From Janibacter cremeus (GTDB lineage Bacteria; Actinomycetota; Actinomycetes; Actinomycetales; Dermatophilaceae): a stretch of 64,000 nt of DNA. The position numbers and the translations under genes are program-made. The stretch covers positions 2,170,001-2,234,000 of the forward strand of contig NZ_CP115184.1 in NCBI RefSeq assembly GCF_029395675.1. The letters run 5' to 3'. This document shows, in pieces, positions 5,833 through 33,067 of this stretch. Positions within the stretch are counted from its first letter, which is position 1, and the number at the start of each line of letters is the position of its first letter. The notes beneath the pieces are model-generated. The model saw only the letters and a program-made list of their open reading frames with translations. It was not told the origin of the DNA and did no database searches.

Positions 5833-5851
5833 GGCAGACCAGTTCTGCATA

Positions 5852-6031: not shown

Positions 6032-6068
6032 CTTCATCTTCACTGACCACCCCACAAGGGAGCCTCGT

Positions 6069-6608: not shown

Positions 6609-6625
6609 CGCACCGCACCGCTTGA

Positions 6626-6664: not shown

Positions 6665-6682
6665 GTTGTCTGCCGCAGACGA

Positions 6683-6735
6683 TTTTGCACCATCGGCGAG
6701 ATAGTGCAGAATGCACTCCATGGCGAATAGTGCAA
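6683..6735 (+). promoter_or_regulatory. Likely autoregulatory operator of the TetR/MMPL pair
   Basis: The dyad AGTGCA-GAA-TGCACT (6703-6717) is a perfect 6-3-6 inverted repeat. The half-site recurs as TTTTGCAC at 6683-6690 and AGTGCAA at 6729-6735, so three or four TGCAC-type half-sites cover the start of the tetR gene. This is the usual design for a TetR repressor controlling itself and the adjacent exporter; binding is inferred. Confidence 0.6.
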
Positions 6736-16532: not shown

Positions 16533-16563
16533 GCTCGCCCTCCTTCCGGGTCCATGACGGCCA

Positions 16564-17511
16564 TCAGAACTTGATGCGCGCGGTCTTGCGGAGCCACACG
16601 CCTCCGATGACGAACATCACGAGCGACAGGGCGAGCAGCCCGTAGCCGAGGAGGCTCTGCGTGAACGGAGCCAGATACGCGGGGTTGGTGAGCCAGAGGA
16701 AGCTCGCGATGCCGACCGGCAGGGCCATGAGGACGTAGACGGACATCTTCCCCTCTGCCGCCAGGACCTTGACCTGACGGCGGATCTGGTTGCGCTCGCG
16801 GATGGTGTGGCCGACGCCGTCGAGCACGTCGGCGAGGTTGCCGCCCACCTCACGGTTGATGACGATCGCCTGCGTGACCCAGTTGAAGTCCTCGCTGCCC
16901 ATGCGTTCGGCGGTCTCGTCGAGGGCCTCGTTGAGCGGACGGCCCACTCGCGTCTCGTTGATGATGCGGGCGAACTCGGTCGAGGTCGGCTCCTCGGCCT
17001 CGGTGGCGACGGACGCCAGGGCCTGCAGGAGGCTGTGACCGGCCCGCAGGCTGGATGCCATGAGCTGGAGGGAGTCGTCGAGCTGGTCGGCGAACGCGAC
17101 CCGGCGCCGGCTCGCCAGGACGCGGAGCGCGATCTTGGCGATGAGGGGGGCCGACACGGCCAGCGGGAGGGCGAGCAGCGGGCCCCCCAGGAGCAGGCCG
17201 ATCGTCGCGGCGACCAGGGCACCGATGCCCACCAGGAAGGCGAAGTCCTGGACTCGCGTGGTCAGTCCGGCGTTCTCCAGAGCGGCAGCGATGCTGTTGT
17301 CGGCGCCACGGCGGCGAAGGATCGTGTCGACGAGTTTCGTCGCCGTGTCGGTCGCACCGGTCAGGGCACTGGGACGCGCGCTCGGCGGTCGCCGCCGATC
17401 CCTGGGCAGGCGTGCCGGTCCGGGGCTGAGCAGCAGGTAGGTCAGCACGAGGAGCGCGAGGGCGAGGGCGATCACACCCGGCCCGGCGCCAGACGTCAGG
17501 ACCCGGGTCAC
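16564..17511 (-). CDS. tadB: Tad pilus platform protein TadB (locus 1)
   Basis: 315 residues, F-family. N-terminal helix, a linker, two helices, a T2SSF domain with LDDSLQLMASSLRAGHSLLQAL and the REVGGNLADVLDGVGHTIRER helix, then two C-terminal helices. The GTG start overlaps the tadA1 stop. Unlike the locus 2 counterpart it carries no vWA domain, so this is the ordinary TadB form. Confidence 0.88.
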   Translation of the reverse strand: MTRVLTSGAGPGVIALALALLVLTYLLLSPGPARLPRDRRRPPSARPSALTGATDTATKLVDTILRRRGADNSIAAALENAGLTTRVQDFAFLVGIGALVAATIGLLLGGPLLALPLAVSAPLIAKIALRVLASRRRVAFADQLDDSLQLMASSLRAGHSLLQALASVATEAEEPTSTEFARIINETRVGRPLNEALDETAERMGSEDFNWVTQAIVINREVGGNLADVLDGVGHTIRERNQIRRQVKVLAAEGKMSVYVLMALPVGIASFLWLTNPAYLAPFTQSLLGYGLLALSLVMFVIGGVWLRKTARIKF

Positions 17512-19091
17512 CGGTAGGCACCGCTCTGGGGTGCACCGAAGACGCTCGGCGACAGGGTGATGCCCAAGTCGGCGAAGCGGTCGGTGAAAGTGGGTCGGAT
17601 CCCGGTCGGCACCGGCTTGCCGAGGAACCGGCCGGAGGCGTCCACGCCGGCTGAGTAGTCGAAGAGGAAGGCGTCCTGGAGTGTGACGGTCTGCCCTTCC
17701 ATGCCCTGCAGCTCGGTGACCGCGGTGACTCGACGGGTGCCGTCGCGCAGACGGGTCAGCTGGACGATCACGTCGACCGCGGATGCGATCTGCTCGCGGA
17801 TGGCCCGCAGCGGCAGGTCCATGCCGGCCATGAGCACCAGGGTCTCCAGACGCGCCACGGCATCACGAGGTGAGTTCGCGTGCACGGTCGACAGCGAGCC
17901 GTCGTGGCCCGTGTTCATCGCCTGCAGCATGTCCAGGGTCTCCCCGCCGCGGACCTCGCCGACGACGATGCGGTCGGGGCGCATGCGCAGCGAGTTGCGC
18001 ACCAGCTCGCGGATGCTGACCTCGCCCTTGCCCTCGATGTTGGACGGGCGGCTCTCCAGGCGCACGATGTGCTCCTGCTGCAGCTGCAGCTCCACCGCGT
18101 CCTCGATGGTGACGATCCGCTCCCCCTCGGGGATGAAGGAGGAGAGCACGTTCAGCAGGGTGGTCTTCCCCGTGCCGGTGCCACCGGAGACGATGATGTT
18201 CAGCCGTGCCTCGACGCAGGCCTGGAGCAGTTCTGCCATCTCGTGACTGAGGGTGCCGAACCCGATGAGGTCGTTGACCTTGAAGGGATCCTTGGCGAAC
18301 TTGCGGATCGTCAGCGTCGAGCCGCTGAAGGCCAGCGGCGGGATGACCGCGTTGACGCGGGAGCCGTCGGCCAGCCGTGCGTCGACCAGTGGGGAGGACT
18401 CGTCGATCCGGCGACCGACCCGGGAGACGATGCGTTCGATCACCCGCCGCAGCTGCTCCTCGGAGGTGAACCGCGCATCGCTGCGGGTGAGCTTGCCCTG
18501 GTGCTCGACGTAGACCATCTCCGGGCCGTTGACCATGATCTCGGTGACCTCCGGGTCGTCGAGCAACCGCTGCAGCGGGCCGTGGCCGAGGACGTCGTCC
18601 TGCACCTCGCGGATCAGTCTGCGGCGCTCGTCGCCGGAGAGGGGCACCTTCTCCTCCTCCACGACGTGGTTCAGCTCGGTGCGCACGATCTGGTGGAGCT
18701 GGTCCTCACCCAGCGAGGGGTCGTTGAGTCGGGCGCCGATCCGCTCGAAGAGGGTCGCGGTGGCGCGGTCCTTCAGCTTGGTGAGCGCATCGCCGCCCGC
18801 CGAGACGGTGGCCGGCGACGTGCGGGGGGACTTCCCCGGGGACGTCTTCCGGGGCGAGGCGGGCGCGGTCGTCGCCCGGGCACTCGTGTCCTCCGCGCGC
18901 GTCTTCGCCGGCTGGGCCATCGCCGGTCGTGGCACGGATGGCGGGGCGCTCTCGCTCCCGCTCGCGCTCGGGGGGCTCGGGGCCACAGGCGGGATCACCG
19001 GGCGCTGCGGAGCGGCGGCGGAGCCCGGGACAGCGGGCCGCCCGCCGCCCTGCTGGTCACGTGCGGCCTGCAGGCGTTCGGACAGGTTCAT
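17508..19091 (-). CDS. tadA: Tad pilus assembly ATPase TadA/CpaF (locus 1)
   Basis: 527-residue type II/IV secretion ATPase that drives pilus assembly, and retraction in some relatives. An approximately 100-residue Pro/Ala/Ser-rich N-terminal extension precedes the usual CpaF N-domain (DDVLGHGPLQRLL, EVTEIMVNG). Walker A GGTGTGKTT at about 303-311, Asp box and Walker B (RIVVGEVRGGE), His box (GHDGSLSTVHANSP). The locus 2 paralogue lacks the long extension. Overlaps both neighbours by 4 bp. Confidence 0.93.
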   Translation of the reverse strand: MNLSERLQAARDQQGGGRPAVPGSAAAPQRPVIPPVAPSPPSASGSESAPPSVPRPAMAQPAKTRAEDTSARATTAPASPRKTSPGKSPRTSPATVSAGGDALTKLKDRATATLFERIGARLNDPSLGEDQLHQIVRTELNHVVEEEKVPLSGDERRRLIREVQDDVLGHGPLQRLLDDPEVTEIMVNGPEMVYVEHQGKLTRSDARFTSEEQLRRVIERIVSRVGRRIDESSPLVDARLADGSRVNAVIPPLAFSGSTLTIRKFAKDPFKVNDLIGFGTLSHEMAELLQACVEARLNIIVSGGTGTGKTTLLNVLSSFIPEGERIVTIEDAVELQLQQEHIVRLESRPSNIEGKGEVSIRELVRNSLRMRPDRIVVGEVRGGETLDMLQAMNTGHDGSLSTVHANSPRDAVARLETLVLMAGMDLPLRAIREQIASAVDVIVQLTRLRDGTRRVTAVTELQGMEGQTVTLQDAFLFDYSAGVDASGRFLGKPVPTGIRPTFTDRFADLGITLSPSVFGAPQSGAYR

Positions 19092-20299
19092 CGTCCTCTC
19101 CTTCGTCCGTGACGGGGCGGGCGCGAGTCGGGGTCCGGCTGCGCGGTGACGGTCTCCGGGATCGTGAGTCGCTCGACGAGGCGTCGCAGCTGCTTCGTCA
19201 CGGGGTCGCGTCCCCCCGACTGCAGGAGCGGCACCCCCTTGTTGGTCGCGACCCGGGTGGCAGGCGATACGGGAAGCCGGAGGTCGACCTTGGTGCCGAT
19301 CGTGGCCTCCACGTCCGCGACCGACAGCCCCCCGCGCTTGTCAGCGAAATTGACGACGACGTGCCGGGCGGGAGTGAGCATCCCGAGCTCTGCCAACGTG
19401 TCCAGCTCCTTGCGCAGGCCCCGCACGCCCGGCACGTCCATGCTGGTCAGCAGGACGTGGTCGGTGGTTCGGTCCAGCGCGGCGAGAGTGTGCTCGGACA
19501 GACCCGGAGCGGTGTCGACGACGACGTAGCGGAACTCGAGAGAGAGCATCTGCAGCAGCTGCGACACGTCCTCGCTCGTGATCGTGTCGGCCGCGGCGGG
19601 CGAGGGCGGACCGCAGATGACATGCAGGCCCGTCTCGTGGAGGGTCAGGAAGGTCTTGAGGACCATCGAGTCGCGTGCCGCCGAGCCGTGGACGACGTCG
19701 GCCAGGGTGAACTCCGGGGCCAGGTCCAGGGCGGTGGCGACATCGCCGAACTGCGCGTCGAGATCGACGAGGACGGTGGAGTTGGGGGCGGTGCGCGCCA
19801 GCCCGACGGCCAGGTTGGTGGCCACGGTGGTCTTGCCCACGCCCCCCTTGGGGGAGAGCACGCTGATCACCCGTCCCGTCGCCGGTGGGGCGTCCGAGCT
19901 CGCGGGCGCGACGGTGTGCGCGAGTGCCTGCGCTGCGAGCGCGGCCCGGTCGAGGACGGACTGGATCTCGGCGATCTCGGCCTGCGGGTGGAGGATGTCG
20001 CGGACGCCGGCGCGCATGGCGGCCAGCCCGAGGTCGGGCCCGTGCTCGGCGACCAGGACCACGGCGATCTGCGGGCACTGCTCGTCCAGCAGCGTCGCCA
20101 GGTCGAGGGCGTGATCCACGGCCAGCTCGGCGTCCAGCACCACCACGTCCGGTGCGGGGGCGCCGTCGAGCTGGGCGAAGAGGTGCGCCGGGTTGCTCGG
20201 CAGGGGCGCCGGAGGCAACGGGAGGAATGCCCCTCCGGTCGCGGCGCGGAACCGGGCCTCCAGGTCCGCGGAGGCGGTGGCCAGTGCGATGCGGGTCAT
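19088..20299 (-). CDS. tadZ: TadZ/CpaE-like localisation ATPase (locus 1)
   Basis: 403 residues. N-terminal receiver-like domain without obvious phospho-acceptor chemistry, then a MinD/ParA-type ATPase with deviant Walker A SPKGGVGKTT (about residues 149-158) and VVVDTAPGLSEHTL. TadZ/CpaE proteins place the Tad machine, often at a pole. Overlaps tadA1 and rcpC1 by 4 bp. Confidence 0.88.
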   Translation of the reverse strand: MTRIALATASADLEARFRAATGGAFLPLPPAPLPSNPAHLFAQLDGAPAPDVVVLDAELAVDHALDLATLLDEQCPQIAVVLVAEHGPDLGLAAMRAGVRDILHPQAEIAEIQSVLDRAALAAQALAHTVAPASSDAPPATGRVISVLSPKGGVGKTTVATNLAVGLARTAPNSTVLVDLDAQFGDVATALDLAPEFTLADVVHGSAARDSMVLKTFLTLHETGLHVICGPPSPAAADTITSEDVSQLLQMLSLEFRYVVVDTAPGLSEHTLAALDRTTDHVLLTSMDVPGVRGLRKELDTLAELGMLTPARHVVVNFADKRGGLSVADVEATIGTKVDLRLPVSPATRVATNKGVPLLQSGGRDPVTKQLRRLVERLTIPETVTAQPDPDSRPPRHGRRRGR

Positions 20300-21036
20300 T
20301 TGTACAGGCTCTCCCGCGTCGCAACGGCGGCGCCGCTGGCGTCAGCCTTCGCACCCTCCAGCGAGAGCCAGATGCGCTCGTACTCGGCCGCGTAGACGAC
20401 CTTCTCCGCCGCAGGCGCGTCGAGTGCCAGCGTGACCAAGATGGTCTCGGCCGGCGGTGCGGCAGCCGCCGGCTCGGCGGCTGGCTCGGCTGCCGGGTCA
20501 GCCGGCGGGGCCACCCCTCCCTGAACCCTGGTCACGAGTACGTTGTGGTCCATCAGGTGGGTCTTGCCGTCTTGGGCCTCACCCTCGAGCGAGACGAAGA
20601 TGCCCACCTTCTCACCGGCGAGCAGATGACCACCGACCACACGGGTGCGGTCCAACCGGACGGTGATCTGGTGCATCCCGGCGGGTGCCTCGACCTCCCC
20701 CGCCGCGGCAAGCGCGTCAGGCTCGACGAAGCGATGGGCCGGCAGCTGCTCGCCGGTCGCCAGCTCGGTCTCGACGACCTGTCCCGAGACCTCGTCCAGG
20801 GAGGACAGGGCACCGGGCGCCTTCGCGGAGGCCGGAACCGTCTCGAGGGCCACCCGATCGGCCAGCTGGCCGGCCGACGTGCCCTTGGGGATCTCCTCGG
20901 TGACCACGAGCACCTTGACGGGTTCGAGGTCGGACATGGCGCGCTCGTCCGCACCGGCCACGTAGGAGACGATGACGAGGGTGCCGATGATGGTCAACAC
21001 GAGGGCCACTGCTGCGGCGAGAAGACGACGGGACAC
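20296..21036 (-). CDS. cpaB: Flp pilus assembly protein CpaB/RcpC (locus 1)
   Basis: 246 residues: one N-terminal helix, then an SAF domain (VLVVTEEIPKGTSAGQL; ATGEQLPAHRFVE), then an RcpC-type beta domain and an Ala/Pro-rich insert (PPADPAAEPAAEP). Extracytoplasmic pilus-assembly factor, probably binding peptidoglycan or periplasmic components. Starts with GTG preceded by AGAGGAA on the coding strand. A 13-base gap separates it from tadG1. Confidence 0.82.
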   Translation of the reverse strand: MSRRLLAAAVALVLTIIGTLVIVSYVAGADERAMSDLEPVKVLVVTEEIPKGTSAGQLADRVALETVPASAKAPGALSSLDEVSGQVVETELATGEQLPAHRFVEPDALAAAGEVEAPAGMHQITVRLDRTRVVGGHLLAGEKVGIFVSLEGEAQDGKTHLMDHNVLVTRVQGGVAPPADPAAEPAAEPAAAAPPAETILVTLALDAPAAEKVVYAAEYERIWLSLEGAKADASGAAVATRESLYK

Positions 21037-21049
21037 GGGGGCGTTCCTC

Positions 21050-22006
21050 TTATTCGGTCAGGGCGACGACGGCGGCACCGAGCGTCGGCGCTGTCATGCT
21101 GTAGTCGAAGGCGTCGGAAAGGTCCACGAACTGGGTGAAGTACCCCCGGATGCACCGAGCGTCACCGCTGCACGGAGCGTTCCACTTGTACTCGCCGTTG
21201 AAGCTGTACCCGGTGAGCCTGAAGGCCGCGTAGCCGTACACGCGGTACGTCGCGGATGAGCCCGTGCCCGTCGACTTGTCGAAGATGGGCAGGAGCACCG
21301 TGGTGTCGTGCAGGGCGACGAAGTCCTCGGGAGTACATCCGCTGGAGACCGAGACACCGGTGTCCGTCAGGAGGGTCTGGAGGATCACCGAGGTCGCGTT
21401 GCAGCTGGTGGACCCGTCGGTCTTGAGCCAGCCGAACCCGCCGGGCACGTTGCCGGACGGCCCCGGGCACGGCGTGGCGGCGCCACTGGTGCCGGACAGA
21501 TAGATCGTGCGCGGCGTTGTTCCCGAGGGAATACCCCCGCCGGTCTGGCTGTCCCACTCGCAGTAGGACAGGGCCAGGGGCAGCATGGCGGTACCACCGC
21601 TCGGGTAGCCCCAGCCGGCCGAACTCTTGGCCGAGACCACGGCGCTGTCGTCCTGCCCGAGCACGGGGGCAAACCAGTGCTCACTCGTGCCTTGGTTGTT
21701 CACGGTGACCCGGCCGACGGTGGGGTCGAAGTGGGCAAGAGTCGCCGCGGGGTCCGCGTCGTTGCTGTTGGGGACGGCCAGCTCCTGGGCCGTCTGGGCG
21801 GGGTCGCCACAAGCCTCGCGCGCGCAGTCCTGGGCGATGGCCAACACGGCGGCGTCGGCGCCGGTCTGCAGCTGCTGGCGCTCGGCGTACATGGCGGCGA
21901 CGTCGATGGATATGGCCGCGAAGCCGATCAGCGGCACCATCATCAGCGCCACGACGACGGCGACGGCACCGCGCTCGCGCTCCTCGCGCCGGATCAACCG
22001 TTGCAT
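21050..22006 (-). CDS. tadG: TadG-like pseudopilin with cysteine-rich C-terminal domain (locus 1)
   Basis: 318 residues. The N-terminus has a TadE/TadG-type helix (ERGAVAVVVALMMVPLIG, putative cleavage after the Gly), the remainder is predicted extracytoplasmic. The C-terminal part shares a set of blocks with the locus 2 protein: S-x-CEWD-x-QT, GGFGWL, GST-x-C, LH-D/E...PIFD, GYSF, and C-x-G...C-I/L-x-G-Y/W-F. The paired cysteines suggest disulfides. Start overlaps the tadE1 end by 13 bp. Confidence 0.78.
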   Translation of the reverse strand: MQRLIRREERERGAVAVVVALMMVPLIGFAAISIDVAAMYAERQQLQTGADAAVLAIAQDCAREACGDPAQTAQELAVPNSNDADPAATLAHFDPTVGRVTVNNQGTSEHWFAPVLGQDDSAVVSAKSSAGWGYPSGGTAMLPLALSYCEWDSQTGGGIPSGTTPRTIYLSGTSGAATPCPGPSGNVPGGFGWLKTDGSTSCNATSVILQTLLTDTGVSVSSGCTPEDFVALHDTTVLLPIFDKSTGTGSSATYRVYGYAAFRLTGYSFNGEYKWNAPCSGDARCIRGYFTQFVDLSDAFDYSMTAPTLGAAVVALTE

Positions 22007-22383
22007 CGCATGGTTCCTTGGCCGGTGAGGGTGACGGTGAGCTGCTCGGGGAAGAGCATCAGGCTCAGCTCCTGGGTGATCGTGACGGTGGCCGTCTGCG
22101 CCATATCTGTGGTGGTGGCACAGGTCGTGGGGGTGACACCGATGTCACCGTCCGTCAGCGTCAGGAGCGGCGACGCCGAGGCCTTCGCCACGGCGCGGGC
22201 GTCGGTGGGGCTGTCCTGCAGGGCCATCACTCGGACACCGTCGCGGGCCGCGGCCGACAGCATGGTCTGGACGTGGTAGGCGCGCCCGAACTCCGCGATG
22301 CCGAGCACCAGGACCACCAGCAGCGGGAGCACAAGAGCGAACTCCACTGCCGCCACACCACGATCCTGCCGTCGAGATGTCAT
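21994..22383 (-). CDS. tadE: TadE-like pseudopilin (locus 1)
   Basis: 129 residues with the TadE signature DRGVAAVEFALVLPLLVVL: prepilin-peptidase site after Gly9, then the conserved Glu and a hydrophobic helix. The short C-terminal domain has two cysteines (TTCATT, MRCNG). A minor pilin expected to be processed by the same peptidase as Flp. The start is 18 bases beyond the hairpin that separates it from flp1. Confidence 0.85.
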   Translation of the reverse strand: MTSRRQDRGVAAVEFALVLPLLVVLVLGIAEFGRAYHVQTMLSAAARDGVRVMALQDSPTDARAVAKASASPLLTLTDGDIGVTPTTCATTTDMAQTATVTITQELSLMLFPEQLTVTLTGQGTMRCNG

Positions 22384-22401
22384 GCACCCTCCAGATGTGC
22401 G

Positions 22402-22434
22402 ACCGGCGCAGCAGCCGCTGGCTGCTGCGCCGGT
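22402..22434 (-). terminator. Intercistronic hairpin after flp1
   Basis: A perfect 15-bp stem (ACCGGCGCAGCAGCC, 22402-22416, and its complement 22420-22434) with a 3-base loop, between the flp1 stop and the tadE1 start. It is not followed by T-residues on the coding strand. Likely a partial terminator or mRNA 3'-end stabiliser that raises pilin message over the assembly genes. Confidence 0.75.
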
Positions 22435-22451
22435 GACGGATCAAGCGGAGA

Positions 22452-22673
22452 TCAGAGGACGGGCTCGGTCGTCCCACCCAGCTTGGTCCCGATCGTCGTG
22501 AACATGTCGTTCAACTCAGTTCCGAGAGTGGTGACCGCGACGATGATGACAACCGCGATCAGGCCGACGAGAAGCCCGTACTCGACGGCGGTGGCGCCGC
22601 GCTCCTTGCGACCCTCGAAGCGGTCGCCGACGAGCGTGTAGATGGTGGCCAGGTAAGCGGCTGCACGGTTCAT
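22452..22673 (-). CDS. flp: Flp family type IVb pilin (locus 1)
   Basis: 73-residue prepilin. A 26-residue leader ends in GRKERG, followed by ATAVEYGLLVGLIAVVII: cleavage after Gly26 would leave a 47-residue mature pilin with Glu at +5 and Tyr at +6, the Flp hallmark. GAAGGAAAA precedes the ATG. First gene of locus 1. Longer leader than the locus 2 pilin. Confidence 0.92.
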   Translation of the reverse strand: MNRAAAYLATIYTLVGDRFEGRKERGATAVEYGLLVGLIAVVIIVAVTTLGTELNDMFTTIGTKLGGTTEPVL

Positions 22674-23018
22674 GACTTTTCCTTCACTAGGTCTGCGGGT
22701 CGTCTGACCCGATCAGGGGGAGGCCCAGTTCCTGTGATGAACCAGCGCCACGAGAAGGATGGCAGATGATTGCCGTTCACGCAAACTCGCGCAAAGCACG
22801 AGTTTTCTCGTTGTGAATATATGCAGTGCCCTGGCCACTATGGCGGCGTGAAACCCGCACTCAGAGAACGACATTCGGATTCTGGTCGCGCGAGCCGCCA
22901 CCGCAACATGGACCCCTCTGGTGTGCGCGACCGGCTCCGGTGCCGTAGGTTCCCTAGGGCCGACAATTTTGCAGATCAAGAAACTCCGCAGGCAGGGCAC
23001 TTCGTGTATAGTAAGGAA
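22674..23018. promoter_or_regulatory. Control region between flp1 and the divergent tetR gene
   Basis: 345 bases, markedly less GC-rich than the surroundings. Seen: a leader hairpin CGGGTC-GTCT-GACCCG (22696-22711) just upstream of flp1; the hairpin ACGAG-TTTT-CTCGT (22798-22811); a leftward -10 candidate TATATT (22821-22816); and TATAGT at 23007-23012 just before the tetR gene. The two inverted repeats are candidates for the TetR operator. No gene seen inside. Confidence 0.4.
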
Positions 23019-23666
23019 ATGGTCAAGGAAGAGCTGGGCCTCAGAGAGCTGAAGAAGCAGATGACCCGCGAGTCGATCGCGGACGCCGCGCTTCAGCTGA
23101 CCCTGGAAAAAGGGCTGAGTGACGTCACGATCGAGGAGATCGCGCAGGTGGCCTTCGTCTCGCCGCGCACGGTGTCGAACTACTTCTCGTGCAAGGAAGA
23201 GGCAGTCGTGACCGCCGGCGGTGATGCCTCGACGGACCTGATCGAGGAGTTCGCACAGCGCCCGGAGGACGAGGCACCCCTTGAGGCCCTGCGCCAGGTG
23301 GTGACGAACTTCGTGGCCTCGACCACCCCCGAGGATCTGCGCCTGAGCGTGCAGAAGATGCAGCTGATCGACGACAACCCTTCCCTGCGCCCGTACCAAG
23401 TGGCACAGCACGCGCACATGGAGGAGCTCCTGCGCTTGAAGATCGCCGAGCGCACTGGTGGCGACGTCGACAGGGACCTCTACCCTTGGCTCGTCGCCGC
23501 TGCCGCCGTGACCGCCGTGACCGCCGCCATGCGGCTGTGGGCGAAATCGGACAGCTCGCCTGACGAGCTCACGCGGCTGGTGCAGACTGCCTTCACTCTG
23601 ACCTCCGACGGCTTGGCATCGCCCACCCTCGGCGACTCAAGCGATCCTTCCAGCCACGTCGACTGA
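23019..23666 (+). CDS. TetR family regulator between the two tad loci
   Basis: 215 residues. Helix-turn-helix visible in VTIEEIAQVAFVSPRTVSNYF; the C-terminal domain is generic. ATG 23019 is preceded directly by GTAAGGAA and puts the HTH at the usual distance from the N-terminus; an upstream in-frame extension of about 83 residues is Arg/Cys-rich and unlikely. Transcribed away from flp1 and towards tadC2. Position suggests control of tad locus 1, which is inference. Base composition of its upstream region is AT-shifted. Confidence 0.8.
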   Translation: MVKEELGLRELKKQMTRESIADAALQLTLEKGLSDVTIEEIAQVAFVSPRTVSNYFSCKEEAVVTAGGDASTDLIEEFAQRPEDEAPLEALRQVVTNFVASTTPEDLRLSVQKMQLIDDNPSLRPYQVAQHAHMEELLRLKIAERTGGDVDRDLYPWLVAAAAVTAVTAAMRLWAKSDSSPDELTRLVQTAFTLTSDGLASPTLGDSSDPSSHVD

Positions 23667-23746: not shown

Positions 23747-24676
23747 CTACAGCGCCCCACCCGAGCCGAACATGTTTTCCATCATTCGGATCGCACCGGG
23801 ACCGATGATGACGACGAACATGGCCGGGAACATGCAGAAGAGCAGCGGAAAGAGGATCTTGACGGTGACCTTCTGCGCCTGTTCCTCGGCCTTCTGCCGG
23901 CGGACCACCCGCATCGACGAGGTCTGCTCTCGCAGAACCTTGGCGACCGGGATGCCAAGCCGGTCGGACTGCACGATCGCCGAGACGAAGTTCTTCACCT
24001 CCGGCAGCACGACCCGCTGCCCCATCGAGGAGAAAGCCTGAGCGCGGGTCTTGCCGAGTTGGATTTCGGACAGCACCCGGGCGAACTCCCCCGACAGCGG
24101 GCCGTCGGTGGTCCGGGCCACCCGCAGGATGGCTCCGTCGAAGCCCTGCCCCGCTTCAACGCATACCGTGAGCACGTCGAGGACATCGGCGAGGTCCTTC
24201 GAGGTGCGCTCCTGACGTCGCAGCGCCGCGTTGTACAGCAAGATGTCTGGCAGGTGGAAGAGCGCCGCCGCGAGGCCCACCGCCACCAGGACTCCGACTA
24301 CGGTGAGGCCACCGAAGCTCAGTCCGAGGGCGAGCCCCAGCAGCAGGCACATCCCCTTGACTCCCATGATCCGATCGACCGTCCACGGCGGGGGATTCCC
24401 GGCGCGGTCCAGTCCGCTGGCCAGCCGGTCGACCCTCCCGCTCGGGGACAGCCGGCGGGCCAACCCGCGCGAACCGGCGAGCACGGGCCCGACGAAGCGC
24501 TCCGAGGCCGGCAGTTCGCTGCGCACGACCGACCTCGAGGACACCGTCCCCTCGATCAGGGCCAGGCCGCGTGCCACCCCGGTCGGTTCGGACGGTCGGA
24601 GCGTGAAGGCGAGCACCAGGACGAGGACGAGCAGGGCGAGCGCGATCATCGCGACCCCGACGAGAGCAATGGTCAT
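23747..24676 (-). CDS. tadC: Tad pilus platform protein TadC (locus 2)
   Basis: 309 residues, F-family, last gene of locus 2. T2SSF segment LADVLDVLTVCVEAGQGFDGAI and the KVTVKILFPLLFCMFPAMFVV ending parallel tadC1. One TM helix at the N-terminus, two before the T2SSF domain. Ends 80 bases from the convergent tetR gene; an imperfect CGAAGG/CCTTCG pairing lies in the gap. One base separates its start from the tadB2 stop. Confidence 0.88.
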   Translation of the reverse strand: MTIALVGVAMIALALLVLVLVLAFTLRPSEPTGVARGLALIEGTVSSRSVVRSELPASERFVGPVLAGSRGLARRLSPSGRVDRLASGLDRAGNPPPWTVDRIMGVKGMCLLLGLALGLSFGGLTVVGVLVAVGLAAALFHLPDILLYNAALRRQERTSKDLADVLDVLTVCVEAGQGFDGAILRVARTTDGPLSGEFARVLSEIQLGKTRAQAFSSMGQRVVLPEVKNFVSAIVQSDRLGIPVAKVLREQTSSMRVVRRQKAEEQAQKVTVKILFPLLFCMFPAMFVVIIGPGAIRMMENMFGSGGAL

Positions 24677-24677
24677 G

Positions 24678-26630
24678 TCACACCTCGATCTTGACGACGC
24701 GGCTCATCCAGAAGATGCCGATGGTGATGCCTACGAGTGCTCCGATGGACATGAGCAGTCCGAAGGCAGTGGTCCACAGCAGTTGCACGTACTCGAAGTT
24801 GACCAAGAGCATGTAGAAGAAGAGTGCGAACGGCAGGGCGATGAGGATGTACGCCGACAGCCGCCCCTCAGCCGAGAGTGCCTTGACCTGGCGGAAGAGC
24901 ACCTCGCGCTCGCGCAGCGTGTGGGCCGTTGTCTGGAGGGTCTCCGCGAGGTTGCCGCCCACCTCACGCTGGATCCGGATGGCCATGACCGCCATCGCCA
25001 TTGACTGACTGCCCATGCGCTCGGCCAGCCGCTCCAGCGCGTCCGCGATGTCGGTACCGATGCGCGTCTCGGCGAGGGCGCGGGCGAACTCCTTGTCCAC
25101 CGGGGGTGCGGAGTCCTGCGCCACGGCGTCCAGGGACTGCATCAGGCCGAACCCACTCTTCAGGCTCGTCGCGACGAGCACGAGGGAGTCAGGGAGGGCC
25201 CGCTCGAAGGCGCGAGCCCGGCGCGCAGCGAGCACCCGAAGCAGAACCTGCGGCACGATCAGCCCGACGACCAGACCGACGAGGACACCGACTAACCAGG
25301 GGCCCGGCAGGACCACCATGAAGACGGCGATCGCGACGATGATCGCCACGCCGCACAGCACGTACCACTCCCCCGCGCGCAGCGGCAGGTCGGCGCGGTT
25401 GACCAGCTGCATCGTGCGGGCGGTGGAGCCTCGCTTGGCCATCCGGCGCTCACCGAAGTCGACGAGTCGCTCACTGATCGCCTTGCTCTCCTCCCGCCCT
25501 TCCCTGCGGGACCACTGCTTGGCCGGGACGACGTAGGCATCGATTCCGGCGAGCCTCAGCTCGCGGCGGGATCGGACCGTCGGGGTGAGGGTTCCGAAGG
25601 CGAGCAGGAAGATCGCCGTGCCGATGGCGAAGGCACCGAGCCACGGCCACGGTGAGGATGCCAACCACCCGCTGGCGGCCGGTTCGGCGTGGGCGGGCAC
25701 CGCCCCTGGCTCTGTCTCATCGGGTTGCGCTTCAGGTGACCCGTCGAGGGTGACCATCCGCTCGACGGCGAAGGGGTCACCGTTGGCGCTTCCTTCCAGT
25801 CGGACCACATGGCGACCGGACAGCTGCTCCGGGGTCGTGATCTCGAAGGGAGCCTGCGAGTTCAGCGCACGGGCTGCGCTCTGGAAGGCGTCACCGACCG
25901 CCTCGGCGTCGTCGGCAGCCAGGACCGACCCGTCTCCTGCCTCGGCGAAGCCGTCGAGGGCGTTCATCGTGTCCTTGTCCTCGGTCCGGAAGCGCACGAC
26001 GTCGACGCGGACTCCGCGCTCGCGCACCGCCTTCGTGGCCTTGACCAAGTCGATCTTGGGTCGGGTACTGACCGTGTCGGCCCCATCGCTGAGCAGAACC
26101 ATGCTGCGGTCGCCATCGTTGCCCAATGCCTTGGCCGCGGCGAGCACCCCGGCGTAAAGGCTGGTCTCGCCCCGCGCGGCGAGGCCGTTGACGATGCGCC
26201 GGACCTGCTGCCGGTCGGCGGAGGGCCTCAGGTCCACACCGGCGGTGTTGGCGAAGGTCGCCACCCCGACCTTGACGTCCTTCGGCACCTCGGCCAGGTA
26301 GGCACGCGTCGCCGCCCTCACCGTGGCCATCCCGTCGACACCCATCGACCCGCTGGTGTCGATGACGAGCATCGACGACCGCTGGACGCTCGTGGAGCTC
26401 GCGACGTCGGCGTCGCGCTCTCGCCCGTCGATGGTCGCGGTGAGACTCCCCGGGTCGACCTGGATGACCTCGGACCCGCGGAAGGTCAGCACGCCGGTCA
26501 AGGAATCACCTCGCGACTCGACGTCACTCATCGAGACGTCCGGAGCAGCGCTCGCCGAGGTGCCTGACAGGGCAGCGAAGACCACCGCAAGCACCATTGC
26601 GGCAAAGATGCGCTGGACGAGGCGGATCAC
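24678..26630 (-). CDS. vWA domain fused to Tad platform protein TadB (locus 2)
   Basis: 650 residues, twice the normal TadB length. Order: cleavable-looking signal peptide (about 1-28, ASA-A), a beta-rich lead-in, a von Willebrand factor A domain (about 85-255) with an intact MIDAS (DTSGSM 91-96, Thr156, Asp182), a second beta-like segment (about 260-300), one TM helix (330-347), a basic linker, two TM helices (421-465), the T2SSF domain (LPDSLVLVATSLKSGFGLMQSL to REVGGNLAETLQTTAHTL) and two C-terminal helices. So the vWA part should lie outside the membrane and the F-domain inside. No frameshift separates the halves. GTG start overlaps the tadA2 stop. It may bind a metal-dependent ligand near the pilus base. 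Confidence 0.9.
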   Translation of the reverse strand: MIRLVQRIFAAMVLAVVFAALSGTSASAAPDVSMSDVESRGDSLTGVLTFRGSEVIQVDPGSLTATIDGRERDADVASSTSVQRSSMLVIDTSGSMGVDGMATVRAATRAYLAEVPKDVKVGVATFANTAGVDLRPSADRQQVRRIVNGLAARGETSLYAGVLAAAKALGNDGDRSMVLLSDGADTVSTRPKIDLVKATKAVRERGVRVDVVRFRTEDKDTMNALDGFAEAGDGSVLAADDAEAVGDAFQSAARALNSQAPFEITTPEQLSGRHVVRLEGSANGDPFAVERMVTLDGSPEAQPDETEPGAVPAHAEPAASGWLASSPWPWLGAFAIGTAIFLLAFGTLTPTVRSRRELRLAGIDAYVVPAKQWSRREGREESKAISERLVDFGERRMAKRGSTARTMQLVNRADLPLRAGEWYVLCGVAIIVAIAVFMVVLPGPWLVGVLVGLVVGLIVPQVLLRVLAARRARAFERALPDSLVLVATSLKSGFGLMQSLDAVAQDSAPPVDKEFARALAETRIGTDIADALERLAERMGSQSMAMAVMAIRIQREVGGNLAETLQTTAHTLREREVLFRQVKALSAEGRLSAYILIALPFALFFYMLLVNFEYVQLLWTTAFGLLMSIGALVGITIGIFWMSRVVKIEV

Positions 26631-28006
26631 GGGGTGATCCGCGCGAAGAGGTGTACCGGTAGCTCGACCCCCAGGTCGGCGAGCTCCTGGACGAAGGCGG
26701 GCCGGATGCCGGTGGGCACCAATTGTCCAAGGTAGCGACCGTGCTCGTCACGTCCGGCTGCATAGTCGAAGGTGAAGATGTCCTGCAGGGTGACCACGTC
26801 CCCCTCCATGCCGATCACCTCGGTGACGGCCACGATGCGGCGTGAGCCGTCCTTGAGCCGGGCCTGCTGGACGATGAGGTCGATGGCCCCGGCCACCTGC
26901 TCACGGATGGCCCTAATGGGCAGGTCGACACCCGCCATGAGCACCATTGTCTCCAGACGGGAGAGGCTGTCGCGAGGTGAGTTGGCGTGGGCGGTCGTCA
27001 GCGATCCGTCGTGGCCGGTGTTCATCGCCTGCAGCATGTCCAGGGCGGCGCCGTCGCGCACCTCGCCGACGATGATCCGGTCAGGGCGCATACGCAGCGC
27101 GTTGCGCACAAGATCGCGGATCGTGATCGCCCCGGTGCCCTCGATGTTCGCCGGGCGGGACTCGGTGCGCAGTACGTGCCGTTGGTGCAGCTGCAGCTCC
27201 GCCGCGTCCTCGATGGTGACGATCCGCTCATCGTCGGGCAGGAAGGAGCTGATGACGTTAAGCGTGGTGGTCTTGCCGGAGCCGGTACCGCCGGAGATGA
27301 GAATGTTCCGCCGGCCTCGTACGCAGGCCTCGAGGAAGTCGCGCACCGACGGGGACATCGTGCCCATCGAGATGAGGTCATTGTCGGTTAGGGGATCCTT
27401 CGCGAACTTGCGGATGGTCAGCATCGAGCCGTCGAGCGCGACGGGAGGCAGCAGCGCGTTGACGCGGGAACCGTCTGGCAGGCGGGCGTCGACCATGGGG
27501 CTGGACTCGTCGACGCGGCGCCCGACCCGGGAGACGATCTTGTCGATGGTGCGACGCAGGTGTGACTCGTCAGCGAAGCGCGTCCCGGCGGCGAGGATCT
27601 TTCCTTCCTTCTCGATGTAGATGTCCTCGGCGCCGTTGACCATGATCTCGGTGACCTCGGGGTCGCGCAGGTACGGCTCGAGGGGACCATGGCCGAGGAT
27701 GTCGTCGGAGACGTCCTGGGCGATCTTCGTCCGATCGGCTTGGGACAGCGGGGTGTTCTCGGAGTCGATGACCTGCTGCAGGGTGTGGCGCACCTGGGTC
27801 GCCAGCTCCTGCTCGGACAGGTGCGGGTCGTACAGACGCGGCCCGAGCGAGGCCACCAGGGACTGGTGGACGCGGTCCTTGACCTCGGCGAAGGGGTCCT
27901 GACCCCGCCTGTGCGTCTTGGCCCGCCGTTCCGGGCTCGCCTGTCGAGGAACCTCGCCGGCCCGGGCACTACGGGCCTGATCCAATCGGTCGGCCAGATT
28001 GCTCAT
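26627..28006 (-). CDS. tadA: Tad pilus assembly ATPase TadA/CpaF (locus 2)
   Basis: 459 residues with the standard CpaF arrangement and no long N-terminal extension. N-domain DDILGHGPLEPYL and EVTEIMVNG; Walker A GGTGSGKTT (about 239-247); RIIVGEVRDGA; GHDGSLTTAHANSP. Closely matches tadA1 over its core, including a C-terminal tail that ends with VPTGIRPAFVQELADLGVEL. Both neighbours overlap by 4 bp. Confidence 0.93.
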   Translation of the reverse strand: MSNLADRLDQARSARAGEVPRQASPERRAKTHRRGQDPFAEVKDRVHQSLVASLGPRLYDPHLSEQELATQVRHTLQQVIDSENTPLSQADRTKIAQDVSDDILGHGPLEPYLRDPEVTEIMVNGAEDIYIEKEGKILAAGTRFADESHLRRTIDKIVSRVGRRVDESSPMVDARLPDGSRVNALLPPVALDGSMLTIRKFAKDPLTDNDLISMGTMSPSVRDFLEACVRGRRNILISGGTGSGKTTTLNVISSFLPDDERIVTIEDAAELQLHQRHVLRTESRPANIEGTGAITIRDLVRNALRMRPDRIIVGEVRDGAALDMLQAMNTGHDGSLTTAHANSPRDSLSRLETMVLMAGVDLPIRAIREQVAGAIDLIVQQARLKDGSRRIVAVTEVIGMEGDVVTLQDIFTFDYAAGRDEHGRYLGQLVPTGIRPAFVQELADLGVELPVHLFARITP

Positions 28007-29187
28007 ACCTTGCTCCTTCGCCGCCCGAGCCCGCGCCGCGGGCTCTCCTGGATCAATTCACCGAACCGGGTCCGCACCTCGCGGTCGGCCAGCTCCCGTA
28101 TCGCCACGGCTGCCGGATTGCGCGGGTCCTGGACGACGATCGGGTACCCGCGGTTGGTTGCCTTGGGCACGCCGAGATCATTAGGGATGCTCGCCGAGAT
28201 CGGTTGTTTCAGTGCCGTCTCGACCTCGTCACTGTCCAGTCCCACCTTGACCCCGGCACGATTGAGGACGACGACCCGGCTCTCTGCGGAGGCACCCAGG
28301 GTGTCGAGGGTGTTGATCGCCAGCCGCAGGTTCTTCACCGCCGGTATGTCGAGGGTCGCGACGAGCAGGGTGAGGTCACTGACGTCGAGAGCGGTGAGCA
28401 CGTGCTCCGTGAAGGAGGGCGGAGTGTCCACGACGACGTACGCGTAGTGGGAGCGGGCCGTGCGCAGCAGCTCGAGGATCACGTCGGCCGGGACCCGCTC
28501 GGCCTCACCCGGATCACTCGACGGGGCGATGACGTCCAGGCCCGTGTCCTCATGGGTGGCCACCACCGACTCCAGACCCGCCCGGTCGAGGTGCCCTCGC
28601 ATGGACACGAGGTCGCTCACCGTCCCGGAGGGAATCAGCTGGAGGCTGATCGCCACGTCGCCGAACATCAGGTCGAGGTCGACGAGAAGGGTTCGTGCGC
28701 CACTCGCCGCCAGGTGGGCGGCGACATTGGTCGACACTGTCGTCTTGCCGACCCCGCCCTTCGCCGAGAAGACGGTGATGACCTTGCCCTGACGAGAGCC
28801 GCCCGACCCCTCGCCTTCGTCGCCCTCCCGAACGAGCTGCGCGGTCAGCGCCTCGCTGCGACGCGCCGCCTCCGCCAGGGCCGTCTGGTCGTCGACCTGG
28901 ACGACCTCGCGGATCCCGCTGCGCAGGGCCAGGCTCATGACGTTGACGTCCAACCGGTGGCGCAGCAGCAGAACCCCCACCTCGGGACGCTCGACGCGCA
29001 GTCTCTCGGCAAGCTGGCAGGCGGACTCGATGTCAATGTCCGCACCGATGACCACCATGCGGTGACCGACGCCATTCTCGGCGGCCTTGAGGATCGACGG
29101 GCCGTGCGACATCACCTCCGGTGACTCACCGAGGGCGTAGCGGTAGGTGTGGTGCGCCTCGGGATCGAAGTCCCACAAGATGGTCAT
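28003..29187 (-). CDS. tadZ: TadZ/CpaE-like localisation ATPase (locus 2)
   Basis: 394 residues. N-terminal receiver-like domain (HRMVVIGADIDIESACQLAERL), then a MinD/ParA ATPase with SAKGGVGKTT and VVVDTPPSFTEHVL. It ends in an Arg-rich tail (RRGLGRRRSKV) not present in tadZ1. Overlaps tadA2 and rcpC2. Confidence 0.88.
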   Translation of the reverse strand: MTILWDFDPEAHHTYRYALGESPEVMSHGPSILKAAENGVGHRMVVIGADIDIESACQLAERLRVERPEVGVLLLRHRLDVNVMSLALRSGIREVVQVDDQTALAEAARRSEALTAQLVREGDEGEGSGGSRQGKVITVFSAKGGVGKTTVSTNVAAHLAASGARTLLVDLDLMFGDVAISLQLIPSGTVSDLVSMRGHLDRAGLESVVATHEDTGLDVIAPSSDPGEAERVPADVILELLRTARSHYAYVVVDTPPSFTEHVLTALDVSDLTLLVATLDIPAVKNLRLAINTLDTLGASAESRVVVLNRAGVKVGLDSDEVETALKQPISASIPNDLGVPKATNRGYPIVVQDPRNPAAVAIRELADREVRTRFGELIQESPRRGLGRRRSKV

Positions 29188-29999
29188 TCCTGCACCTCCC
29201 TCAGCAGGTCACCCATGTCCTGGGGGAAGATCGTCATGTCGTTGGCGTGCGAGTCCTCGTCGATTTTCACGTCGGAGCCGCGCAGGCCTGCGTAGAGGGT
29301 GTACTCGGTGATGCCGTGTGCGAGTCGGGGGGCGTCCTTCGGCGTGACCGCAAGTGTGACGAGGAAGCTCGGCGCGTCTGCGGCTTGCTCGTCACCCTTC
29401 TCTCCCTCCTGCTCCTTCGGCGTGGACAGAGCCGTGTCGCCCATCGCGATAACTTGCACGTCCGGCAGGAGGACGGTCGTCCCCTGGACGTCGAGGTCGT
29501 TGAACGCCTTGGTCTTGTCCTCGTCGCCGCCGACGGCCTTGATCTTGTGGGTGGCGTACACCGCGATGTGCGTACCGGGGGTCACGAACTGTCCCACCCG
29601 AGCCGGATCGGACAGCTCGACGGACATCGCGATCATCCCGGAGGGAACGGTGATGGCCTTCTCCCCTGTCGGTGTGGTCCCGAATCGGTCATTCATGAGG
29701 AACTCACCCGGTTGCACGTCGGCGAGCGCCAGCAGCGAGCTGTTGTCCGGCCCGACCTCTTGCAGGGCGCCCGTGGGCAGTGCGCCGGCGGCGACGTTCG
29801 TCTTCGTAACCAATTCGGTGCGCACCGCGTCCTTGAGCGTCGTACCCGAGGGGACGAACTGTTCGGCGACATACACGGGCACCGCCTTTGCATCGGCGAT
29901 CGCCCGGGCGTCGGACCCGCGGACGTAGTTGATGACGAGGCCGGCCCCGGCAAGGGCCAGCACGACCGCGACCAGCACGGCGATGACGCGACGGTTCAT
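29184..29999 (-). CDS. cpaB: Flp pilus assembly protein CpaB/RcpC (locus 2)
   Basis: 271 residues; one N-terminal helix, SAF domain (VYVAEQFVPSGTTLKDAV; VQPGEFLMNDRF) and RcpC-type domain. Equivalent to the locus 1 protein but with an acidic rather than Ala/Pro-rich insert. A 42-base gap to tadG2 is the largest inside the non-pilin part of the operon. Confidence 0.82.
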   Translation of the reverse strand: MNRRVIAVLVAVVLALAGAGLVINYVRGSDARAIADAKAVPVYVAEQFVPSGTTLKDAVRTELVTKTNVAAGALPTGALQEVGPDNSSLLALADVQPGEFLMNDRFGTTPTGEKAITVPSGMIAMSVELSDPARVGQFVTPGTHIAVYATHKIKAVGGDEDKTKAFNDLDVQGTTVLLPDVQVIAMGDTALSTPKEQEGEKGDEQAADAPSFLVTLAVTPKDAPRLAHGITEYTLYAGLRGSDVKIDEDSHANDMTIFPQDMGDLLREVQE

Positions 30000-30041: not shown

Positions 30042-31325
30042 TCAGCCGGCGGGTTTGATGGCGACGACCCCGAAGTCCCCGTCCAGGGGATCTCCCGGGG
30101 GAGCGATGGATGGCGCGTCCGAGATTGTCCCGGTGACAAACCATCCGGTGAGGCACTTCTCCGAACCTGAGCAGTTGTATCCGCCCGGGAGTGAACTGCC
30201 ACCACTGGTGTTTCCAGGGAATGAGTAGCCGCTGACGTAGAACTTGGCCCATCCCGCGAGGTGATACCACGTGTTGTTCCCACTCGTATCCGGATTCGTG
30301 GGGTCGCACACGCCCTCGGGCGTGGTTGGTGGGTCACCCACCGCGAGTGCCGCATCCCCGACGATGCAGTCGAAGATCGGGATGTCGATCACGGACTCGT
30401 GGAGGTTCGGCAACTCGCAGGGGGCGGGCACGTTGGCACCGACGTCGATGTGCACCCAGTCGTCATCGGAGACCTCGGTCTCGCAGGTGGAGCCGCCGTC
30501 CAGCCACCCGAAGCCACCGGAAGTGTCCTTACCGTTCCAGTCACAGTCGGAGTCGTCGTCCCCGGGGTCGTGCTGCTGGATGACGATTTCCCGAGAGGGG
30601 TCCGGCCACGGGTTGCTCGCGTCGTAGCCGGGCTTGGCGCCGACCGGACCGTTCGCGACGAAGTCATCACCGCTGTTGGTCTGCAGATCCCACTCACACG
30701 ACGAGATCGTCAGGGGGAGTGAGGCAGAGTGCCCCACCGGGATCCCCCAGGCGGCTCGGGCGCACGCGCTGGTGCCCTTGTCGCCGGAGGCACTTCCGAG
30801 CAGCACGCGGGAGAAGGGCAGGAAGAGTTCGCTGTCGCCGCCATCCGTCTGGGTGGCCGAGTACGTCTCGACGTACGGGATGGCCGGCTCGGCAGCGAGC
30901 CAGTCCGGCAGCTCAGGGCATTCAGCGAGATCGTTGATGTCCCCCGCGGTGACGCAGTCGACCCCGTCGAGTGGGCCCACTTGGTCGGCGGTCCCGCGGG
31001 CACACACGCCGGGGGTGTATCGATCGGTGCGGTACCGGCCGGCGGTGTCGTGGGAGTTCGCGCCGAGCAGGTCCTCCACCTCAGTTGGGTCACAGTTGGT
31101 CGCGTCAGCGGCGCACTCGGACGCCAGCGCCAAGGACGTCGCGTCGGCGCCGTTCTGCACCTGGCGGCGCTCGAAGGTGAGATTGCCCAGGTCGATGCTG
31201 ATCGCGAGCATCCCCAGCACCACGCTGCTGCCGACAAAGAAGGCGACGACGGTGACCGCGACGCCACCACGCTCCCCATCTGCGCGACTTCGGCTACGGA
31301 GCCGGTTGAGGACCGGGAGTCTCAT
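30042..31325 (-). CDS. tadG: TadG-like pseudopilin with cysteine-rich C-terminal domain (locus 2)
   Basis: 427 residues, over 100 longer than the locus 1 paralogue. N-terminal helix after GERGGVAVTVVAFF. The same blocks appear (SSCEWDLQT, GGFGWL, GSTCE, LHESVIDIPIFDC, GYSF, CSGSEKCLTGWF) with extra cysteines and acidic loops (DPGDDDSDCDW) between them, as in calcium-binding loops. ATG overlaps the tadE2 stop. Predicted extracytoplasmic, function within the pilus unknown. Confidence 0.78.
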   Translation of the reverse strand: MRLPVLNRLRSRSRADGERGGVAVTVVAFFVGSSVVLGMLAISIDLGNLTFERRQVQNGADATSLALASECAADATNCDPTEVEDLLGANSHDTAGRYRTDRYTPGVCARGTADQVGPLDGVDCVTAGDINDLAECPELPDWLAAEPAIPYVETYSATQTDGGDSELFLPFSRVLLGSASGDKGTSACARAAWGIPVGHSASLPLTISSCEWDLQTNSGDDFVANGPVGAKPGYDASNPWPDPSREIVIQQHDPGDDDSDCDWNGKDTSGGFGWLDGGSTCETEVSDDDWVHIDVGANVPAPCELPNLHESVIDIPIFDCIVGDAALAVGDPPTTPEGVCDPTNPDTSGNNTWYHLAGWAKFYVSGYSFPGNTSGGSSLPGGYNCSGSEKCLTGWFVTGTISDAPSIAPPGDPLDGDFGVVAIKPAG

Positions 31326-31732
31326 CAGACTTCACACCTCATCGCGGCGGTGGACTCAGCGTCCGGAAGTGACGTGGCCGAGCCGCCGAAAAAGCTCATG
31401 GCCGGACCGAGGAGGATCCAGTCGAAGTCCGGATCCGCGACCGTGATCTCGATGGTCGTGCCGGCCCCGGCGCAGGCAGGGGCAGCAGGGTCCATGGTCA
31501 GGGCCGGGATCCCGGGGGCCGCCGCCTGGACACGCAGGAAGACATCCGCCTCCCCAATGACCGCCACCCGGACACCCTCACGTGCAGCGTTCGTCAGCTG
31601 GACTTCCTGGAGGAAGTACCGACCGAAGTCGACTATCCCTCCGATGACGAGCAGTAGAAGAGGGAGCATGATCGCCATCTCGACGGCGGCAGCGCCGCGC
31701 TGCTGCCACCCAGCTCGTGAAGTCGCTCGCAT
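31325..31732 (-). CDS. tadE: TadE-like pseudopilin (locus 2)
   Basis: 135 residues. Signature QQRGAAAVEMAIMLPLLLLVIGG with a putative cleavage after the Gly. The start ATG 31732 is chosen because GGAGGGG sits eight bases upstream on the coding strand; an in-frame ATG further upstream would overlap that ribosome site. The soluble part has two cysteines (APACAG, MRCEV), as in tadE1. Confidence 0.85.
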   Translation of the reverse strand: MRATSRAGWQQRGAAAVEMAIMLPLLLLVIGGIVDFGRYFLQEVQLTNAAREGVRVAVIGEADVFLRVQAAAPGIPALTMDPAAPACAGAGTTIEITVADPDFDWILLGPAMSFFGGSATSLPDAESTAAMRCEV

Positions 31733-31820
31733 CGGAAATCCCCTCCGCATTCTTGCAGTCTTGATACCGGGGACCACCTGGCGCACAGGTCAGGGGATCA
31801 ATGATTGGTGATGAAGGGAC

Positions 31821-31879: not shown

Positions 31880-32059
31880 TCAGGTGGTGAGCTCGGTGAG
31901 GACCGTGTTGAACTCGATCAGGAGCTGGTCACCGATGGCGGCAACAGTCCCGATGATGACCGCGGCGATGAGGGCGACCATGATGCCGTACTCGACGGCG
32001 GTCGCGCCCTTCTCGCGCTGGGTCATGAGGCTCTGGAGGCGAACGAAGATCTCGAGCAT
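31880..32059 (-). CDS. flp: Flp family type IVb pilin (locus 2)
   Basis: 59-residue prepilin: 18-residue leader ending QREKG, then ATAVEYGIMVALIAAVIIG; cleavage would leave 41 residues. Shares the ATAVEYG start with flp1 but differs after the helix. AAGGAGAAA lies eight bases before the ATG. A longer upstream start would add 55 residues without pilin character. First gene of locus 2. Confidence 0.92.
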   Translation of the reverse strand: MLEIFVRLQSLMTQREKGATAVEYGIMVALIAAVIIGTVAAIGDQLLIEFNTVLTELTT

Positions 32060-32389: not shown

Positions 32390-33067
32390 GTGTCTGCGAC
32401 CTTTGCCCTGATCGCCTCTCTCGCAACGGGAGCCGCCGTCGGGGTGGTGTTGCGGCCACGACTGGCGACGACGCGCTACCGCCTTGCGGACGAGCTGGAC
32501 CTGCCCCGCCCCGCCTCCTGGTGGGTCGTCCCCGTGACCGCGGCGGTAACGGCACTCGTGTGGTGGGCCATCGCCCCCGGCCAGCCGATCGTCGTCCCGG
32601 CCGTCTACGTCCTGGCGGTGTGGACGATGGTCGTGCTGGCCTTCGTCGACCTCGACGTCCAGCGACTACCGGACGCGATCCAGCTGCCCGCATACCCGGT
32701 GCTGACCGTGCTGCTAGCGGTGTGCAGCAACGCGATTGGTGACTGGTCCCCCTTCGGCCGTGCCCTGCTGGCCGGGGTGGCGCTCTTCGTTCTCTTCCTC
32801 GTCCTGGCGATCCTGCCCGGTGGCGGGATGGGATTCGGTGACGTCAAGCTCGCCGGCCTGCTCGGGATGCTGCTCGGCTGGCTCTCCTGGACCCAGGTCA
32901 TGTGGGCGACGCTGGCGACCTTCCTCATCGGTGGCGTCGTCGCCGCCGCGATCGTGCTCGTCTCGCGAAGGGGTCGAAGGCACGAATTCGCCTACGGCCC
33001 ATCGATGCTCGTCGGTGCCGTCGGGGCGCTGGTCGCACCCGCCGTGCTGCGGCTCCTGCTCAGCTGA
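32390..33067 (+). CDS. tadV: Prepilin peptidase (A24 family, TadV/CpaA-like)
   Basis: 225-residue aspartic membrane peptidase expected to process the Flp pilins and TadE/TadG. Catalytic motifs: FVDLDVQRLPD (Asp87) and GGGMGFGDVKL (Asp151). Six or seven hydrophobic segments. GTG 32390 lacks a good Shine-Dalgarno. It is the only peptidase gene in the window, so it probably serves both tad loci. Its TGA overlaps the end of the convergent MMPL gene (33060-33067). Confidence 0.88.
   Translation: MSATFALIASLATGAAVGVVLRPRLATTRYRLADELDLPRPASWWVVPVTAAVTALVWWAIAPGQPIVVPAVYVLAVWTMVVLAFVDLDVQRLPDAIQLPAYPVLTVLLAVCSNAIGDWSPFGRALLAGVALFVLFLVLAILPGGGMGFGDVKLAGLLGMLLGWLSWTQVMWATLATFLIGGVVAAAIVLVSRRGRRHEFAYGPSMLVGAVGALVAPAVLRLLLS

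Follow-up and report, generated by a model that had tools for sequence, protein, structure and literature searches.

The window analysed here, a stretch of 64,000 nucleotides from Janibacter cremeus (contig NZ_CP115184.1, positions 2,170,001 to 2,234,000), contains a minus-strand open reading frame (ORF) at 24678-26630 that encodes 650 amino acids and joins, in one reading frame, a von Willebrand factor A (vWA) domain to a complete TadB, a platform protein of the Tad/Flp (type IVc) pilus machine. Judging from sequence comparisons, this vWA-TadB protein is a member of a phylum-wide family of Actinomycetota and not a one-off; because the fusion recurs next to CpaF throughout the phylum, it cannot be put down to chance. 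The first-pass annotation of this DNA had known of no such fusion as a described system, and we likewise found no account of it in the open-access full-text literature, a scope without most subscription papers and bioRxiv preprints. The family is already present in sequence databases under generic names ('type II secretion system F family protein', 'tight adherence protein B', 'VWFA domain-containing protein').

Architecture of the fused protein

Pfam matches on vWA-TadB comprised VWA_2 at residues 87-183, VWA at 88-249 and T2SSF at 485-608, each above its curated cut-off, and the T2SSF match, at 67.2 bits against a cut-off of 25.2, identified the platform domain of TadB. Within the vWA fold, the metal ion-dependent adhesion site (MIDAS) is complete, with the DxSxS motif at D91-T-S93-G-S95 and the further Thr and Asp residues at T156 and D182. 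The single 650-residue ORF with a signal, an intact-MIDAS vWA domain, a transmembrane (TM) helix and a complete TadB, as read by the first-pass annotation, is therefore borne out by Pfam and by the sequence. The gene also sits where TadB is expected, with CpaF/TadA and TadC on either side, in an operon that includes Flp, TadE, CpaB and CpaE, and its GTG start overlaps the CpaF stop (shared GTGA). With respect to plain TadB, the N-terminal addition amounts to about 325 residues (export signal, beta strands and vWA); residue 12 of the plain TadB of a neighbouring cluster (16564..17511) aligns at residue 332 of the fusion, which places the module boundary there. The elements of the protein are as follows.

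24678..26630, minus strand: vWA-TadB fusion, 650 amino acids, GTG start (ORF, Pfam, AlphaFold2)
26550..26630, minus strand: putative Sec export signal, residues 1-27 (hydrophobic segment 4-22 and SASA/AP site, by eye)
26403..26540, minus strand: N-terminal beta strands ahead of vWA, residues 31-76 (AlphaFold2 model)
25860..26381, minus strand: vWA domain, residues 84-257 (Pfam, AlphaFold2, structural neighbours)
26346..26360, minus strand: MIDAS motif 1, D91-T-S-G-S95 (sequence, homologue alignments)
26163..26165, minus strand: MIDAS T156 (homologue alignments)
26085..26087, minus strand: MIDAS D182 (homologue alignments)
25746..25856, minus strand: beta strands past vWA, residues 259-295 (AlphaFold2 model)
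25656..25736, minus strand: linker, residues 299-325 (predicted local distance difference test, pLDDT, under 50)
25587..25649, minus strand: first TM helix (native TadB TM1), residues 328-348 (alignment, hydropathy, AlphaFold2)
24807..25178, minus strand: T2SSF domain, residues 485-608 (Pfam)

In the model, strands 31-76 and 259-295 probably form one beta-sandwich and the linker is probably disordered. Internal starts preceded by a Shine-Dalgarno sequence in the linker or TM1 occurred in 15 of 91 fused ORFs, compared with 15/91 and 18/91 in the controls; the power of this test is limited because it recovered a start in no more than 21 of the 53 start regions of plain TadBs. From its sequence, the fusion would be made as one product.

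Predicted topology and structure

Hydrophobic segments were found at residues 4-22, 331-349, 423-441, 446-464, 592-610 and 622-640. The loop 23-330 contains 30 Lys and Arg versus 45 Asp and Glu residues, the loop 350-422 has 17 versus 10 and the loop 465-591 has 18 versus 16, a charge pattern consistent with a vWA domain outside and a T2SSF domain inside. Hydropathy, loop charge and the AlphaFold2 model together predict the five TM helices and the cytoplasmic T2SSF domain of a TadB, and thus lend support, at the level of prediction, to the orientation proposed in the first-pass annotation (vWA outward, T2SSF inward). Structure prediction, which had been suggested there as a check, gave a mean pLDDT of 88.4, with values of 93-98 by ten-residue blocks in the vWA domain and below 50 in residues 299-325, and a predicted template modelling score (pTM) of 0.54. 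Structural neighbours of the vWA domain include the pilus adhesins Mfa5, SpaC, PitA and S. sanguinis PilB, together with BatB (3ibs, 4jdu) and the archaeal ArnAB complex (8s05).

Distribution in Actinomycetota

Searching actinobacterial TadBs for an N-terminal vWA domain, the other check proposed at first pass, showed that the fusion recurs, in 91 of 150 TadB loci. The 150 comprise 30 top-scoring matches, the 80 best of the 391 loci of a contig scan and 40 loci picked mostly for being without vWA; since the set was not drawn at random, its proportions are not frequencies. It holds 76 fused loci with intact MIDAS, 15 fused loci with degenerate MIDAS and 59 that are plain or not classed as fused, the last including four unclean rows: L129 (cut by the contig start), L162 (ambiguous), L095 (split by a stop) and L117 (N-terminal part without vWA). 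Among the best 80 of the 391, 58 were fused, all from Actinomycetota, and the remaining 22 consisted of 12 plain TadBs from Bacillota and Chloroflexota and 10 loci from Actinomycetota.

At E 1e-10 or better, matches were obtained in 217 of 396 genomes of Actinomycetota, our own included, and in at least 57 of those (a hand count) a single match spanned from residue 90 or earlier to residue 647 or later. Close homologues numbered 222; of the 120 listed, 119 have both vWA and T2SSF, and the closest named one among these 120 is from Janibacter alittae (81% identical). None of the plasmid-borne TadBs (262 records, mostly Proteobacteria by name) spans 80% of the query, and in the 60 listed of the 262 the match starts at residue 480 or later.

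One of the carriers of the fusion is Pimelobacter simplex ATCC 6946 (L069). CpaF lies directly upstream in all 91 fused loci. In 28 of 30 fused loci, a TadC-like protein is encoded in an ORF of its own, on the same strand; by a positional test such an ORF was found in 64/76 intact-MIDAS and 15/15 degenerate loci, many flanks being short. The distance from the CpaF stop to the TadB domain has a bimodal distribution, with a median of 393 amino acids in fused versus 77 in plain loci: it ranges over 283-508 in the 76 intact and 369-433 in the 15 degenerate fusions, and over 60-417 in the 56 of 59 plain loci where it was measurable, only the odd loci L162, L117 and L095 exceeding 130.

Two of these odd loci deserve description. 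In L095, from a metagenome-assembled genome (about 4386-6857, plus strand), a vWA ORF and a TadB ORF lie in the same frame with one stop in the linker; the split may be real, a decay or a sequencing error. L117 (3777-5837, plus strand) is a Catenuloplanes TadB whose N-terminal extension has no vWA match and is perhaps a remnant following vWA loss.

Conservation and loss of the MIDAS

The MIDAS is complete in 29/29 deep homologues, with Ser or Thr at residue 93, and in 119/119 close homologues. Both sets were selected by similarity and not by MIDAS; L024, which has no start within its stretch, was omitted from the 29-row alignment, and P0094, a 430-residue fragment without vWA, from the 119. 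This conservation suggests that the predicted metal site works in many lineages. Conservation among the 76 intact proteins would be a circular argument, since these were sorted by MIDAS.

The degenerate fusions (L057, L062-L065, L079, L080, L084, L088, L090, L091, L097, L099, L116 and L124) are mostly from Acidimicrobiia and fall mainly in one Acidimicrobiales-rich clade. On the TadB tree their label requires 5 changes, at least 4 of them forced by well supported branches. These proteins keep their length and the vWA profile still matches them.

Evolution of the fusion

Trees were calculated with FastTree only. Explaining the fused/plain label on the TadB tree (147 rows, four duplicate TadB rows dropped) takes 14 changes, of which well supported branches force at least 11. 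One supported clade with 16 fused rows also contains the plain TadB from the adjacent cluster at 15645-22673, along with four other plain rows, and the vWA module was therefore probably lost in that cluster. A second tree compared 93 fused vWAs with 23 others from actinobacteria, the latter cut out with a profile built from fused vWAs. In it the fused label needs 2 changes (shuffled mean 21.4, 0/500 as low); the branch separating the fused vWAs has a support of 86 and is not starred. By this tree the fused vWAs are one family. The vWA and TadB distances correlate (r 0.66, 76 proteins, 0/2000 permutations as high). Taken together, the two trees favour a single early gain followed by many losses, though there may have been several gains.

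Two rows of the vWA tree call for comment. L039 (1293-2351, minus strand), a freestanding vWA-TM protein, falls inside the fused family; no Tad gene was seen within the 6 kb read, and it is possibly a secondarily freed copy. L198 is long-branched and its place is unsure.

Operon and genomic context

The fusion lies in a full Tad operon with the minus-strand order Flp, TadE, TadG-like, CpaB, CpaE, CpaF, vWA-TadB, TadC, and the prepilin peptidase sits on the opposite strand.

23747..24676, minus strand: TadC, second platform protein (T2SSF)
26627..28006, minus strand: CpaF/TadA motor ATPase (T2SSE)
28003..29187, minus strand: CpaE/TadZ (domain match)
29184..29999, minus strand: CpaB/RcpC (RcpC above cut-off, CpaB model just under cut-off)
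30042..31325, minus strand: TadG-like protein (without vWA by Pfam, homologue domains and model)
31325..31786, minus strand: TadE minor pilin (domain match)
31880..32059, minus strand: Flp major pilin (Flp_Fap; start inferred, longest ORF to 32224)
32390..33067, plus strand: prepilin peptidase (Peptidase_A24)
16564..17511, minus strand: plain TadB used as internal comparison (neighbouring Tad cluster 15645-22673)

The neighbouring cluster has the same gene set, and its TadB starts with TM1. Between the two clusters lies a TetR-family gene (22770-23666, plus strand; TetR_N and an MftR-type C-terminal domain), a possible regulator. The genome contains ten T2SSF domains, apparently in five pairs; PF13519 has five matches there, of which two score under the cut-off. 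In three other Tad-like regions of the genome, which lie outside the window (L042-L044, with TadB/TadC-like ORFs), no vWA was found by the vWA profile used here.

Possible role of the platform vWA module

The explanation we favour, with evenly balanced confidence, is that vWA-TadB serves as TadB in the platform of a type IVc machine and carries an accessory, base-mounted module for metal-dependent docking, gating or tension sensing. The fused ORF, the operon context, the intact MIDAS residues and the recurrence in Actinomycetota, from which it starts, are directly observed or well supported, as is the topology by prediction. The outward N-terminus of TadB would be extended by the exported beta/vWA module, which would surround the nascent pilus on the outer side of the membrane, beneath the wall. 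There, the predicted metal site may grip an acidic side chain of the pilus or of a machine partner (tip minor pilin, CpaB or Flp) and thereby modulate docking, gating or the sensing of tension at the base of the pilus. The module is taken as accessory because related species retain the same neighbouring genes without it. The Caulobacter vWA minor pilin CpaL, for which a position above the platform prior to extension has been proposed, offers a precedent.

Several observations weigh against this assignment. No partner of the vWA module was identified; the pTM of 0.54 leaves the relative placement of the domains uncertain; and the PDB neighbours have very diverse functions, so that the fold is silent on the role. 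The module is absent in many relatives of fused loci: Nocardioides gilvus lacks it yet keeps the CpaB-CpaE-CpaF-TadB-TadC arrangement of N. solisilvae, its fused sister. Together with the degenerate MIDAS in 15 of 91 fused proteins, this means that a metal-dependent role is not general. The same degenerate proteins, whose label needs 5 changes on the TadB tree and which retained their length and vWA match, favour a module that only steadies the platform or acts as a spacer for the wall, its metal site being functionally unimportant. The complete MIDAS in all 29 deep and 119 close homologues speaks against such a structural cap, which we regard as rather unlikely.

A role in surface adhesion, as implied by the first-pass annotation, fared less well. 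The intact MIDAS and the adhesins among the structural neighbours would suit binding of ligands outside the cell, but TM1 and the low-confidence linker of about 27 residues tie the vWA domain to the membrane, some 30 residues above it, and its estimated reach of at most about 15 nm is small compared with the thick Gram-positive wall. It is thus doubtful that the domain could bind external ligands directly from beneath that wall, and with the MIDAS degenerate in 15/91 and the module missing in related clusters we consider an adhesin very improbable. The vWA domain might instead perform from the platform the job presumed for the vWA of the minor pilin CpaL, i.e. tip priming or mechanosensing. 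The TadG-like protein of the operon, modelled as a long N-terminal helix with a beta-rich body, fits this in that no vWA was detected in it by Pfam, in the model or among its structural matches, nor as a precomputed domain in its homologues (0/120); the vWA profile gave 0 matches on 30 other actinobacterial PF13400 loci and Pfam none in 10 long TadG-like ORFs selected from them. However, among 4 TadG proteins from Proteobacteria just one had a vWA match, under the curated cut-off, and a vWA elsewhere in plain-TadB clusters was not demonstrated, which makes a relocated tip function quite unlikely in our view.

Within the docking, gating or tension reading, a more specific and itself unlikely arrangement can be envisaged. 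In the available text of PMC13170226, the CpaG/CpaH platform is modelled as a trimer of TadB-TadC pairs; if the present platform were a trimer as well, three vWA domains could form a ring about the emerging pilus and serve, in a metal-dependent manner, to clamp it or gauge tension at its base. The vWA domain would then have joined the stationary platform early in Actinomycetota, the TadG-like pilin of the same operon carrying none, and the sensor would be at the anchored end of the filament rather than at its tip. How monoderm Tad machines hold the assembly complex with so few parts is raised as an open question in the portion of PMC6916266 available to us. A platform vWA that is conserved yet repeatedly lost is a testable candidate for this function, and among related species the same operon occurs naturally both with the module and without it.

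Comparison with known systems

TadB/CpaG of Tad (type IVc) pili shares with the fusion the T2SSF domain, the TM layout and the position between CpaF and TadC, but lacks the roughly 325 N-terminal residues. CpaL of Caulobacter crescentus is, in the accessible parts of its descriptions, a vWA minor pilin predicted at the tip and proposed to lie over the platform before extension, whose vWA gave no density (PMC12607857, PMC13170226). It resembles vWA-TadB as a Tad component with a predicted MIDAS-bearing vWA; there, however, the vWA is on a pilin module and split by a beta-rich domain (148-203 and 384-626) (PMC12607857), whereas in vWA-TadB it is continuous (84-257) and on a platform protein that has a Sec-like signal and no pilin module. 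Another fusion within an actinobacterial Tad platform is that of Micrococcus luteus tad-2, where TadB is joined to TadC; vWA terms do not occur in the available text of that paper (PMC4322843). In type IVa systems, PilY1-type tip proteins and S. sanguinis PilB combine vWA and MIDAS with a type IV filament, but are located at the tip and not joined to the platform. PilY1 has a C-terminal beta-propeller; the C-terminus of vWA-TadB consists of T2SSF and TM helices. Finally, BatB (3ibs, 4jdu) and ArnAB (8s05) have the vWA fold in common with the fusion, though not within a pilus platform protein.
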